From Glomus cerebriforme (lineage: Eukaryota > Glomeromycota > Glomeromycetes > Glomerales > Glomeraceae): a DNA stretch of 64,000 nucleotides. The translations under genes were made by a program, and so were the position numbers. Location: positions 86,638 through 150,637 of the forward strand of contig QKYT01000051.1 in assembly GCA_003550305.1 (NCBI GenBank), written 5' to 3'. Shown one piece after another: positions 41,551 through 47,122 of the stretch; within the stretch, counting starts at the first letter, position 1, and every line of letters starts with the position of its first letter. The notes below the pieces were generated by a model. It ran no database searches. It had not been told where the DNA came from and saw only the letters and a program-made list of their open reading frames with translations.

Positions 41551-44500
41551 TTAATCTCCCCAATAATTATCATCTGTATCATCTGTATCATCTGTTTCCT
41601 CTGTTTCCTCTGGCAGATTATCCATGTAAATACTAAGTAATTCAAGTTTACGAATTTTGTCATTTTTAATAGATGAAAGGTTTGTTTTTCTATATTCTTC
41701 TGCTTCTTTGAATTGCTTTTTAATTTCATAATATTGTTGTTTTTCTTCCGTTGAACTAAATATAAAATATGAATCATGAAATGATTTACAAATAAATTCA
41801 ATTGATTTATACAATTCAATAACATCTGGCCTGTTGTTTGGATTTGAGTCCCAACACATTTTCATTAAGTTGATATAGTGTTCTGGTACTTCTGACGCAT
41901 TTATTTCAGGTCTAATTCCTTTAGTTATTTTCATTGCATCATAATTACATTTATCAAAAGGTTGTTTTCCAGTTGCTATAAAGTACATAATCATACTAAA
42001 GCTATATATATCTACTGCTTGAGAATAAGGTTTTTTTTTCAATATTTCAGGAGCTACATAAGGCATAAATCCATAAATTCTCGTATCATCATCATTATTA
42101 GCTTCTCTACATAATCCCATATCTGATATATACACATTATTAATATCCATATTAATAGAAAAATTCTTAAATAATATATTTCCTGTATGAAAATCATAAT
42201 GAATCATTTTTTTTTGATGAATTTCCTTAAGTCCTTTAATAATATTAAATAATATTTGTATTTTATGTTGCCAGCTAACATATATGTAATTTTCCTTCAT
42301 CCAATTATCAAGACTTCCACCTCCTGCATATTGAAGAACCATGATATAATTTTTTGTATTTGGGTTCTGGGATATTCCATATGTTTTAAGAATATTACTA
42401 CTGTACTTTTTTGTTGAATATTCTTGAATCTATTATTAAGTCAGAAAAAAAATTATATTAATAATTAATAAAAATAAAAGAATTTAAATACTGTAAAATT
42501 AAATTTCATACCTCATTTAAGAATTTTTCGGAGATATTTTGTGAATTACGTAAACATTTTAAAGCAACTGTTTGATTTGAATCTCTTTTCCATTCTTTTT
42601 CTTTATTATCATAATATAATGGACCATCTTTCCATATTGCTGAATATACTGTAGCAAAGCTACCTTCACCTATTGGTTTAATATCATTAAACTGATTATA
42701 TGGTATCCATTCAAATACTATACCATCTGGACCATTAGTTTTTAATTGTATATTTTGAATGAAATCATCAATTTTTTCAATTTTACTAATCCAGCTATTT
42801 GCTTTCAAATCATTTATATAACATGATTTACACCATTCAAATATTGTTGTATATTGTTCACCACATTTTTCGCAACAATCATTCTCAAGAACTATAATAT
42901 AATCTTTTGTATCCGGATTTTGAGATATTCCATATACTAAATTATTCCCATTCATAAAATATAATTTAACCTATTAATATAAAAAAAAAATAATAATTAT
43001 ATTAAAGTATTTAGAATGGTTAAAAACATATATATATATATAATTAAATTCATAATAAATACCTCATTTAAAAATTCATCAATATCATCTTCCAAACTGG
43101 ATAAATATTTTAAAATAACTTTTTTATTTTGTGTTCTTTCCCATTCCTTTTCATTGCCATTATAATCTAATGGACCATCCTCCCATATTGCTAAATAAGC
43201 GACCTTTTTATTTGAAAACCTTTTATAATTTTCTGATATTGTGATAACATGACCTACATTACGGCCATCACCTTTTTTTATTTCCTTAATATCATTAAAC
43301 TGATTATATGGTATCCATTCAAATATATCATTATAACTAGAATTAATTTTTAATTGGATTTGTTGAATAAAATCATCAATTTTTTCAATTCCACTCCAAT
43401 TTGTAAAATTTGCTTTTAAATTATTTATTTGGCATGGTTTACACCAATTATGCTTTGCATTATCTCTATTTATATATTGCTCGCCACATTTCTCACAATA
43501 TCCATCTAAAAGAACTATTATATAATCTTTTGTGTCTGGATTTTGTGACATTCCACATATTTCAAGGGCATTATCATCTGATATATGTGCTTTTTCAACC
43601 TAAAATATATATGTAAAAATAAAGTTATTTAAAAATAAATCTATATTTAAATTAAATTTATAAAATTCATACCTTATATAAAAACTCATCAATATTATTT
43701 TTTGAATTATATAAACATTTTAAAGCAACTTTTTTATTTAATACTTTAGTCCATTTCTTTTCATTCCAATTATACTTTAATGGTCCATCTTTCCATATTG
43801 CTAAATATATTATAGTAAATTCATTTTCGTCTATTTTTTTAATATTATCAAACTGATTATATGGTATCCATTCAAGTATTGTGTTATCTAGGTCATCAAT
43901 TCTTAATTGCATTTTTTGAATAAAATTATCAATTTTTTCATTTTCACTAGTCCAATTTCCAAAGTTTGCTTTTAAATCATTTATTTGACACGATTTACAC
44001 CACCATTCATACTTTGCATTAAATTTATCTATATATTGCTCACCGCATTTTTTACAATATTCATTTCGAACCATTACATAATGATTTGTATCTGGATTTA
44101 GAGATATTCCATATACTTCGAAAATTTTATCATTGGAGTCATCTGTTAAATATTCTTTAACCTATTAAAATAAAATAAAATTATTATACTAAAAATATTA
44201 AATTAAATATTAAATTAAATTTATAAAAAAGTTCGTACTGTACCTCATTTAAAAATCTATTAATTTTATTTTGTGAATTATATAAACATACTAAACTATT
44301 TGGATGCCTTTCATATCTTTTTGTATTTGTATTATACTCTAATGGACCATCTTTCCAAATTGCTGAATATGTTGTATCAAATCCACCTTCATTTATTTCT
44401 TTAATATTATCAAACTGATTATATGATATCCATTCAAATATTGTACTTTCTAGATTATCAATTTTTAATTGCATTGATTGAATAAATTTATCAATTTTTT

Positions 44501-47122
44501 CGTTTTCACTAGTCCAGGTTGTAAAGTTTACTTTTAAATTATTTATTTGACATCGTTTACACCATTCATATTTTGAAAAATATTTATCTGTATATTGCTC
44601 ACCACATTTTTTACAATACCTATTTTCAAGAACTATTATATAATCTTTTGTATTTGGTTCTTGAGATATACCATATATTTCAAAAGTATTATTACCATCA
44701 TTCAATTTATCTAATAAATATGCTTTAACCTAATAAAATAAAAACAGTAAATTGATATATATATTAAAAAGAATTAAATTACATATATAATAATTTTCAT
44801 ACCTCATTTAAAAATTTATCAATAGTATTCTGTGAATTATTTAAGAATTGTAAAGCAACTGTTTTATTCGAACCTCTTTTCCATTTTTTTTCATTATAAT
44901 CATAATATAATTGACCATCCTTCCATATTGCTAAATATACTGCAGTAAAATTACTTTTGCTTATTTCTTTGATATCATTAAATTGATCATATGATATCCA
45001 TTCAAGTAAATTACTATTATTAGATTTAATTTTTAATTGCATTTCTTGAATGAAATTATCAATTTTTTCATTTCCACTCAAACTTAATAAATTTGCTTTT
45101 AAATTATTTATTTGACATGATTTACACCATTCAAGCTTTGCATTATGCTTATCTATATATTGCTCACCACATTTTTTACAATATCCATTCTGAAAAATTA
45201 TAATATAATATTTTGTATCTGGATTTTGAGATATTCCATACATTTTAAAAATATTATTAACCGAATATTTTTTAATCTATTAAAAATTAAAAAAATTTAT
45301 ATTAAAAAAATTTTATAATCACATATATAAAAAATAAATTTCATACCTCATCTAAAAAATCACTAATGTTATTTTGTGAATCATGTAAACATTTAAAAAC
45401 AACTTCTAAATCCGAATCTCTTTTCCATTTCTTTTCATCATAATTATAAAGTAATTGGCCATTTTTCCATATTGCCGAATACAATGTAATAAAATTACTT
45501 TTTCTTATCTCTTTAATATCATTAAATTGCTCATATGGTATCCATTCAAATACATTACTAAAATTATAATTGATTTTTAATTGCATTTCTTGAATTATAT
45601 CATCAATTTTTTTGTTCTTACTATAGCTTAAAAAATTTGCTTTTAAATCATTTATTTGACATGATTTACACCATTCATGTTTTGCATCATATTTATTTAT
45701 ATATTGCTTGCCACAATTATTACAATATCCATTCTGAAGAACTATTATATAATCTTTTGTATCTGGATTTTGAGATATTCCGTATACTTTAATAATATCA
45801 TCTGATTCTTCTGATTCAATTAATCCATCTAATCCGTTTGGTTCGATTAATCCTTCTAATCCATCTGATTCGTTGAATCCTTCTAATCCATCTGATTCAT
45901 TGAATTCGTCTAATTCAATTAATTCATCATCAAATTCATTCAATTCATCTGATTCATATAATTCATATAATTTATCTTTATCTAATTCATTCAAATCACC
46001 TGATTCTCCTGATACATCTAATTTGTATAATTCATCTGATTCATCAAATTCATTGAATTCTTCAACTTTTAAATATGTTATAACCTATTGAAATATAAGA
46101 AAAATTATTTGTTAAAAAAAAAAAAGATAATTTAAAAACTAGCAAATTAATTTATATACCTCTCTTAAAAATTCATTGATGTCATTTTGTGAGTTATATA
46201 AACATTTTAAAGCAACTTTTTTGTCTGATTCTCTTTTCCATTCATTTTCACTATTATCATAATATAATTGACCATTTTTCCATACCGCTGAATATAATGT
46301 AGTGGTATCATTTGTAATTATTTCTTTAATGTTATTAAACTGGTCATATGGTATCCATTCAAGTATTGTTTTTTTACCAAGAGAATTAATTTGGATGAAA
46401 CTATCAATCTCTTCATTTCCACTATGCGTCCAATTTGGAAAAGTTTTTTCTAAATAATTTATTTGACATGGTTTACACCATTTAATCCACGTATTTGTAT
46501 ATTGCTCGCCACACTTTTCACAATAGCCATCCCGAAGAACCATCATATAATCTTTAGTATCGGGATTTTGAGATAATCCATATACTTCGAGAGAACTACC
46601 ATCATCTGATTCATCCATTGTACGTGCTTTAACCTATTTAATGAAACATAATTATTATTTAAAAGGACTTTTAAAAAAATTAATGTATAGAAAATGTTTC
46701 CATACCTCATTTAGAAATTCATCAATGGTATTTTGTGAGTTAAGAAAACACTTTAAAGTAACTTTATTTTCCTTCCATTGTTTGTTTCTTGTATATTCAT
46801 TTTTACTATCATTATAATATAATGGTCCATCCTTCCATACTGCCGAATATATCGTGGCAAATTTATCTTCACCTATTTTTTTAATTTTATTAAAGTGATT
46901 ATATGGTATCCATTCAAATACTATATCATCATACTCATTAATTTCTAATTGCATTTTTTGAATGAAATCATCAATTTTTTCATTTTCACTGGACCACTTC
47001 ATAAAATTTGCTCTCATATCATTTATTTGACATGGTTTACACCATTCGAATAATTGGTTCTTACTATTAATATACTGTTCGTCACAATTTTTACATCGCT
47101 CAAGATTATTTTGAGATGACAT
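41551..47122 (-). CDS. giant kinase with eight tandem zinc-ribbon/N-lobe modules and one C-lobe
   Basis: Nine exons: 47122-46706, 46633-46160, 46084-45347, 45276-44803, 44729-44244, 44161-43673, 43599-43063, 42970-42512 and 42429-41551; 4,953 nt, 1,650 aa. Every exon is a whole number of codons and every intron (70-92 nt, GT-AG) is phase 0, right after the last residue of the alpha-C motif FLNE. Exons 1-8 each hold a zinc ribbon (YCxxCGEQY...WCKxC), a linker with NEKIDDFIQ, the block EWIPYNQF, and kinase strands beta1-3 to alpha-C. Exons 2-8 begin with beta4-beta5 of the preceding lobe (VYGISQNPDTKDY). All eight ribbons keep CxxC...CxxC. Glycine loops are degenerate in modules 1-7 (GEDKF, TNDTT, RKSNF, SKSNF, NEGGF, DENEF, KKGDG with an insertion). 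The lysine is lost in modules 4 (VALQ) and 5 (deleted). Module 8 is canonical (GEGSFATVY, Lys1343, Glu1358). Exon 9 supplies HYDFHTGN (Asp1437), DMG (Asp1461), VAPEIL and an acidic tail. One active kinase carrying a multivalent array is my inference. Confidence 0.9.
45790..46075 (-). repeat. acidic low-complexity repeat inside exon 3 of the array kinase
   Basis: A coding minisatellite-like stretch, units built from GAATCAGATGG(A)TTAGAAGG-type words on the coding strand. It encodes about 90 Asp/Glu-rich residues (repeats such as FNESDGLEG) between the second and third modules. The unit arrangement suggests length variation between strains. Confidence 0.8.

Follow-up and report, generated by a model that had tools for sequence, protein, structure and literature searches.

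Tandem kinase N-lobes ahead of a single C-lobe in a gene family of Glomus and Rhizophagus

Here we describe a gene of the arbuscular mycorrhizal fungus Glomus cerebriforme that encodes eight tandem kinase N-lobes and only one C-lobe. It lies in a 64,000-nucleotide stretch of contig QKYT01000051.1 (assembly GCA_003550305.1, positions 86,638 to 150,637 of the forward strand), which we call the window and whose numbering is used throughout. We regard this architecture as near certain, and the gene is one member of a large family rather than a single curiosity. Unit 8 and the C-lobe are predicted to form the catalytic N-lobe/C-lobe pair of a tyrosine kinase-like (TKL) kinase. Judging from their conservation, the seven pseudo-N-lobes in front of it may act as a non-catalytic, multivalent interaction array, a reading to which we give somewhat better than an even chance.

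Results

Architecture of the window gene

The gene runs on the minus strand through nine open segments, from an ATG at 47122 to a stop codon ending at 41551 (Table 1). Splicing these segments gives 1,650 amino acids plus the stop (1,651 codons). All nine exon lengths are divisible by three, and all eight introns are in phase 0, measure 70-92 bp, begin with GTA and end with TAG. In-frame stops are present in every intron, and the GC content of the introns is 0.07-0.17, compared with 0.21-0.30 for the exons. The nine-exon frame, intron phases and coordinates proposed by an earlier reading of the DNA alone (hereafter the sequence-only reading) were all right, and a single transcript probably joins the nine exons.

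The introns lie directly 3′ of the alpha-C glutamate (for example between FLNE and VKAY), where unit 6 has a lysine, so beta4-beta5 of each unit open the next exon. The seven internal exons therefore each consist of beta4-beta5, a ribbon, beta1-3 and alpha-C, and the repeat unit of the sequence-only reading, a zinc ribbon with beta1-3 and alpha-C whose beta4-beta5 lie in the following exon, is seen in the window exons. An N-lobe profile finds eight units and a C-lobe profile one C-lobe, which agrees with the claim that a full C-lobe follows only the eighth N-lobe. The proteins scored with the two profiles had also served to build them; the C-lobe profile left out beta4-beta5 (a version that included them matched every unit), and a C-lobe piece had to exceed 60 residues to count.

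In the terminal kinase VALK, FLNE, HYDFHTGN and DMG are all in place, with Y for the HRD arginine. The terminal unit with its C-lobe belongs to PF07714 by the match of exon 9 (Table 1), while exon 8 alone scores weakly (17.4 bits; cut-off 23.1); in a six-unit relative, P0022, residues 858-1129 match this family at E 6.2e-45. The loops of units 1-7 are exemplified by GEDKFATI, TNDTTTLY, RKSNFITL and DENEFTII. Of the window exons scanned, numbers 1, 2 and 4 matched no Pfam family at E up to 1, and a profile of the seven internal exons had no PDB match at E up to 1. The kinship of the outer units to kinases therefore rests on their likeness to unit 8 and the family's terminal units.

Table 1. Exons of the array gene and a neighbouring kinase gene, in window positions
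Feature	Positions	Strand	Content
Exon 1	46706..47122	-	Start codon; unit 1 zinc ribbon, beta1-3 and alpha-C, with degenerate loop GEDKFATI
Exon 2	46160..46633	-	Unit 1 beta4-beta5; unit 2 ribbon, beta1-3 and alpha-C, with loss of the glycine loop
Exon 3	45347..46084	-	Acidic insert; unit 2 beta4-beta5; ribbon and N-lobe core of unit 3
Exon 4	44803..45276	-	Unit 3 beta4-beta5; unit 4 core with Q for the VAIK lysine
Exon 5	44244..44729	-	Unit 4 beta4-beta5; unit 5 core, VAIK motif deleted
Exon 6	43673..44161	-	Unit 5 beta4-beta5; unit 6 core, alpha-C glutamate replaced by K
Exon 7	43063..43599	-	Unit 6 beta4-beta5; unit 7 core, glycine-loop insert of ~19 residues
Exon 8	42512..42970	-	Unit 7 beta4-beta5; unit 8 core, sole unit with intact loop GEGSFATV plus VALK
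Exon 9	41551..42429	-	Unit 8 beta4-beta5; sole C-lobe with HYDFHTGN, DMG and APE; acidic tail; stop; PF07714 E 3.7e-33
Neighbouring single-copy kinase, same family	38307-40156	+	One N-lobe, one C-lobe; tail to tail with the array

The acidic insert of exon 3 (45810-46060) consists of degenerate 9/18/27-base tandem repeats, and the strand opposite it is also open (45774-46091).

A family of array genes

An ORF near the array gene (36841-37698) matches a protein of Glomus (Rhizophagus) cerebriforme with 100% identity across 93% of its length. The same genome holds at least 179 unit exons in at least 67 clusters, and no fewer than 31 of these loci have three units or more. The genomic arrays read besides the window gene were L051-L054; L021-L050, available as 3.2-3.3 kb pieces, were left out. 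L051 and L054 each encode eight N-lobes and a C-lobe, and L052 seven and a C-lobe. L053 (C1047:208900-215800) encodes six N-lobes with no C-lobe in the 6.9 kb read and is possibly a kinase-free array; it ends just past beta4-beta5, and the 2.1 kb further on are without a C-lobe.

Public proteins were collected with arrays as queries and with a length filter, so that ordinary single kinases were excluded by design. The best 120 of 323 and the best 120 of 771 matches together gave 236 distinct proteins, which were scored, the strains of R. irregularis among them not being independent. The sequence-only reading had proposed a search for other proteins with three or more units, and 196 of these 236 Rhizophagus and Glomus proteins carry 3-19 N-lobes followed by one C-terminal C-lobe; the largest array, P0001, has 19 units. 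Another 40 contain N-lobes only (5-16), and an internal or second C-lobe occurs in none of the 236. The outer units are thus N-lobes without C-lobes, and only the last unit is paired with one, as the same reading had held and as the model of P0022 also has it. The layout is found in records of R. irregularis, R. clarus, R. diaphanus and G. cerebriforme, and the names noted among the listed array proteins all belong to Rhizophagus or Glomus. Neither search listed an exact match to the window gene in its best 120 (best identities 51% and 56%), though records identical to it may have been omitted. Bacterial and archaeal genomes, scanned for the internal exon, gave 189 pattern matches, none of them confirmed.

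Truncated models may account for part of the 40 N-only proteins, because short C-lobe pieces were not counted and because one of them, P0071, retains GKGGF and stops soon after beta5. In N-only proteins as a whole, GxG is present in 22 of 354 units. A public annotation of L054 as a single protein (P0047, C1645_833312 of Glomus cerebriforme; 1,385 aa, seven N-lobes and a C-lobe) aligns to the locus as ten exact pieces, one residue apart. Six of its nine joins are at places proposed here and one is three codons further on; the other two are odd, one lying within a unit and one losing most of a unit, and both sit in exons where the L054 assembly has unknown bases.

Truncated models such as P0071, the faults of the L054 model at unknown bases and an AT-rich, repeat-rich genome are what could be expected if the arrays were artefacts, that is, collapsed paralogues, pseudogenes or adjacent genes merged by annotation. 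We give this explanation hardly any credence, as the layout recurs in the records of four species and the window units contain no stops. Fusion by annotation, in particular, is disfavoured because it would leave internal C-lobes, which none of the 236 proteins has.

Two further observations concern the extent of the family. Fourteen array proteins (P0004, P0008, P0011, P0017, P0020, P0046, P0061, P0063, P0110, P0244, P0271, P0285, P0304 and P0345) have locus tags in the range OCT59_008306 to OCT59_008509, all on a single contig of R. irregularis (4,919,323 bases), where their genes form a large cluster. An open frame of 9,042 aa on contig C699 (G000:C699:84857-94846), with one array unit at its edge, was rejected, being unknown bases or an assembly gap as far as it was read.

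Most outer units have lost the glycine loop

Residues are numbered after PKA by motif, and we take the motifs to correspond to K72, E91, D166/N171, D184 and so on. The terminal units of the family keep K72 in 194, E91 in 182, HxD..N in 181 and DxG in 178 of 196 cases. GxG is present in 165/196 terminal units versus 30/1,204 outer units, which as a class lack the GxGxxG glycine loop. Arranged by distance from the C-lobe, its frequency is 84% in the adjacent unit, then 3.1, 3.1, 4.1, 1.8, 0.8, 1.1 and 1.6%, and 2.3% at eight or more steps. This distribution bears on the idea that exon skipping pairs various N-lobes with the one C-lobe, yielding many kinases per gene. All exons are 0-0, so any skip would preserve the frame and restore the alpha-C/beta4 join; however, GxG is found in 165/196 proteins beside the C-lobe and in 6/196 one step away, and most other splice joins would consequently yield kinases without a glycine loop. 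We consider such a splicing repertoire very unlikely.

Column by column, the biggest losses of conservation in the outer units are in the glycine loop, at A70 and in the alpha-C/beta4 loop, with V57 also among the most relaxed positions; we take all of these to face the nucleotide or the C-lobe. Part of the loss before beta4 may be misalignment, because the loop there varies in length. Conservation in outer units is about that of terminal units at EWIP, the A and W of SAIW, GPL, the R before beta3, the V and L of VxLK and the GIS of YGIS. This pattern suggests that the fold and the outer sheet are selected, and contacts with ATP and the C-lobe much less so.

The outer N-lobes might instead compete with the catalytic N-lobe for its C-lobe, or dock the C-lobes of other kinases, as an autoinhibitory switch. 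They keep K72 in 995/1,204 and E91 in 740/1,204 units, the tyrosine four residues past E91 is found in 71% of 1,141 outer units (95% of 193 terminal units), and pseudokinase domains are known to regulate their neighbours, JAK JH2 being an example in the part of PMC8141879 consulted. The alpha-C/beta4 loop, A70, V57 and the glycine loop, which face the C-lobe and the nucleotide, are nevertheless among the most relaxed positions, and N-only arrays have no C-lobe of their own. Docking of own or foreign C-lobes, the latter suggested by the sequence-only reading, is therefore disfavoured, and we hold lobe competition in either form to be improbable.

The zinc ribbon is a less constant part of the unit. 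CxxC...CxxC ribbons can be read from the translation in 8/8 window units, as had been claimed, but the ribbon is not obligatory across the family: by pattern it occurs in 524/1,142 units of 121 proteins, and 37 of the 121 have essentially none. The NOB1-type zinc ribbon PF08772 is matched by 4/17 scanned array proteins; in the arrays it is a short appendage of the N-lobe, missing from many of them. Matches to PF08740 (BCS1_N) were also noted on 4/17 scanned array proteins at E down to 9e-13. The best stretch on P0022 (266-295) covers beta3 and alpha-C of an outer unit, and we would put these matches down to coincidental similarity or a fault of the profile, not to an AAA protein.

Predicted fold of the outer units

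An AlphaFold model of P0022 has beta1-3, alpha-C and beta4-5 in every unit, and each of its five outer units shows strands, hairpin, strand, helix and two strands in order, with 910/1,198 residues at a pLDDT (predicted local distance difference test) of 70 or more. Rows comparing P0022 with solved structures cover mainly residues 825-1151. By secondary structure, the model thus supports an N-lobe fold of five-stranded sheet plus alpha-C in the outer units. The prediction that a middle unit folds as beta1-beta5 plus alpha-C holds for this relative; for the window gene itself, the model of exon 4 (pLDDT 39, seven rows) is too weak to judge.

Constraint on the window units

The eight window units share 70-81% of aligned bases pairwise and are free of stops throughout their 1,021 codons. 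When neutral drift was simulated to the same divergence, with one unit as stand-in ancestor, ~28-55 stops arose, and 0/200 runs were stop-free at any setting. The ratio of non-synonymous to synonymous substitution (dN/dS, NG86) across the 28 unit pairs was 0.41-1.17 with a median of about 0.60, whereas simulated neutral pairs, of AT-biased composition and 15 per setting, had means of 1.2-1.6. The absence of stops and the ratios below the neutral means indicate that the window units are constrained and exclude chance.

Origin of the arrays

A tree was made for 196 terminal and 365 sampled outer units, with the glycine-loop and VAIK columns left out. On it the terminal/outer label changes 27 times, whereas 200 shuffles gave 161 changes on average and never fewer than 148. 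So few changes suggest that terminal and outer units are mostly separate lineages maintained through gene duplication. The nearest neighbour of 88/102 terminal units is the terminal unit of another gene, and that of 24/830 outer units is a terminal unit (strain orthologues included). The mean identity of outer units is 0.59 within their own array versus 0.46 to other arrays, which fits local amplification.

The single-copy kinase next to the array (Table 1) likewise has a likely intron after the alpha-C glutamate (GAG, then GTATTA...TTATAG), and is a plausible model of the unduplicated ancestor. Two cysteine-rich, ribbon-like stretches were noted at its N-terminus. From such genes, an array may have arisen when a tandem pair of two-exon kinase genes was fused by a deletion that joined beta5 of copy one to the N-terminus of copy two and removed the first C-lobe. 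The resulting 0-0 symmetric exon could then have multiplied via unequal exchange with the frame unbroken, as its symmetry allows.

Kinase genes on probable endobacterial contigs

Ten further kinase loci (L002, L004, L005, L007, L008, L010, L013, L018, L019 and L020; contigs C726, C36, C980, C765, C1049, C1007 and C133, GC 0.28-0.33) are open over 587-974 aa only when TGA is taken to code for a residue. Of two that were read, one has leucine-rich repeat (LRR)-like repeats; one keeps the glycine loop GRGGFAEV and the other has D at the first glycine. These contigs probably belong to a Mollicutes-related endobacterium in the assembly; movement of kinases and LRR genes from fungi into such endobacteria has been described (PMC10507103, in part). 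None of the genome matches listed places an array on these contigs.

Discussion

Our analysis favours a gene with one catalytic kinase and a row of pseudo-N-lobes as an interaction array. In such an array each outer N-lobe would be a stable beta-sheet/alpha-C module, often ribbon-bearing, that has kept its fold and outer sheet surface and would no longer bind ATP or pair with a C-lobe. The array would be a multivalent binding platform, as the sequence-only reading had also proposed, and would bring partners or ligands to one kinase, as LRR or Sel1 repeats do elsewhere. A broader proposal, which we put forward tentatively and think rather less likely to be right than wrong, is that the half-kinase has become an autonomous repeat module in arbuscular mycorrhizal fungi, building large, fast-turning intracellular recognition arrays, mostly wired to a kinase and sometimes kinase-free, as a receptor or scaffold repertoire.

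Several results weigh against the interaction array. The fold was obtained on the relative P0022, with the window's own exon 4 poorly modelled, and the predicted template modelling score (pTM) of P0022, 0.47, carries little information on unit-to-unit placement. Relaxation of the outer units extends past the active site (~1-1.7 bits at E91 and several alpha-C positions, about 1 at K72), and the beta4 motif is found in 971 of 1,204 outer units versus 192 of 196 terminal ones, the beta5 motif in 818 versus 181. A dN/dS of about 0.6 means moderate constraint only, with one pair at 1.17. The identity of 0.58-0.73 between window units and their best relatives, and copy numbers ranging from 3 to 19, fit weakly selected drift as well.

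The strongest rival is a neutral ratchet, in which a phase-0 exon multiplies by unequal crossing over and the extra N-lobes, being folded and placed at a distance from the catalytic domain, are tolerated with no task beyond harmlessness. The spread of copy number, low unit identity between arrays, moderate dN/dS, loss of the ribbon from many arrays and partly relaxed alpha-C would all be expected of it. It fits less well with eight diverged units with zero stops, with a conservation close to that of the catalytic unit at several core positions, with the outer/terminal split kept across gene duplication, and with arrays lacking any C-lobe, some of which are truncated models. We consider the ratchet unlikely, if deserving of serious attention; pure junk is disfavoured because the units are constrained and N-only arrays exist.

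A kinase and a dead kinase-derived unit share one chain in 196/236 of the listed proteins, as they do in some known systems; the dead unit here is not a complete (pseudo)kinase domain, as the outer units are N-lobe only, with no C-lobe behind any of them in the window gene or the 236 proteins. JH2 of the Janus kinases is a whole domain, single and without an N-lobe array, and we know of no Raf/Roco4-type TKL kinase with tandem N-lobes. The excerpts consulted of PMC8141879 place the dead unit of Janus kinases (JH2 + JH1) directly N-terminal of the active one, as in the arrays. Plant tandem kinase-pseudokinases (TKPs) such as WTK1/Yr15 and RPG1 likewise carry a kinase and an inactive kinase-derived copy in one chain, and in them, too, glycine G52 of the dead copy ranks with its least conserved residues (PMC6170490, in part). 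TKPs have two domains per protein, kinase and pseudokinase in tandem, and belong to plants, whereas in the Rhizophagus and Glomus arrays the N-lobe alone is repeated, in 3-19 units.

Kinase expansion in these fungi is already well known. PF07714 is the commonest motif in the expanded genes of Rhizophagus irregularis (PMC6123716, in part); the arrays share Pfam family, genus and paralogue-rich setting with that expansion. The outer units are largely invisible to PF07714, and the portions consulted of two expansion papers tally kinase genes with the N-lobe array unmentioned (PMC6123716, PMC8647823). No description of N-lobe arrays appeared among the titles and abstract openings listed from the literature searched, which takes in little of the subscription literature, and an earlier description is possible. 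In these fungi, a major group of plant symbionts, the arrays give structure to part of a kinase expansion that has lacked an explanation. Kinase lobes are usually regarded as one inseparable fold, and here the N-lobe alone is under constraint, in up to 18 outer copies. This makes the N-lobe a candidate stand-alone repeat fold, mostly freed of the ATP-binding loop and the C-lobe, and makes the arrays a natural test that separates the positions needed for folding of the N-lobe from the catalytic ones.

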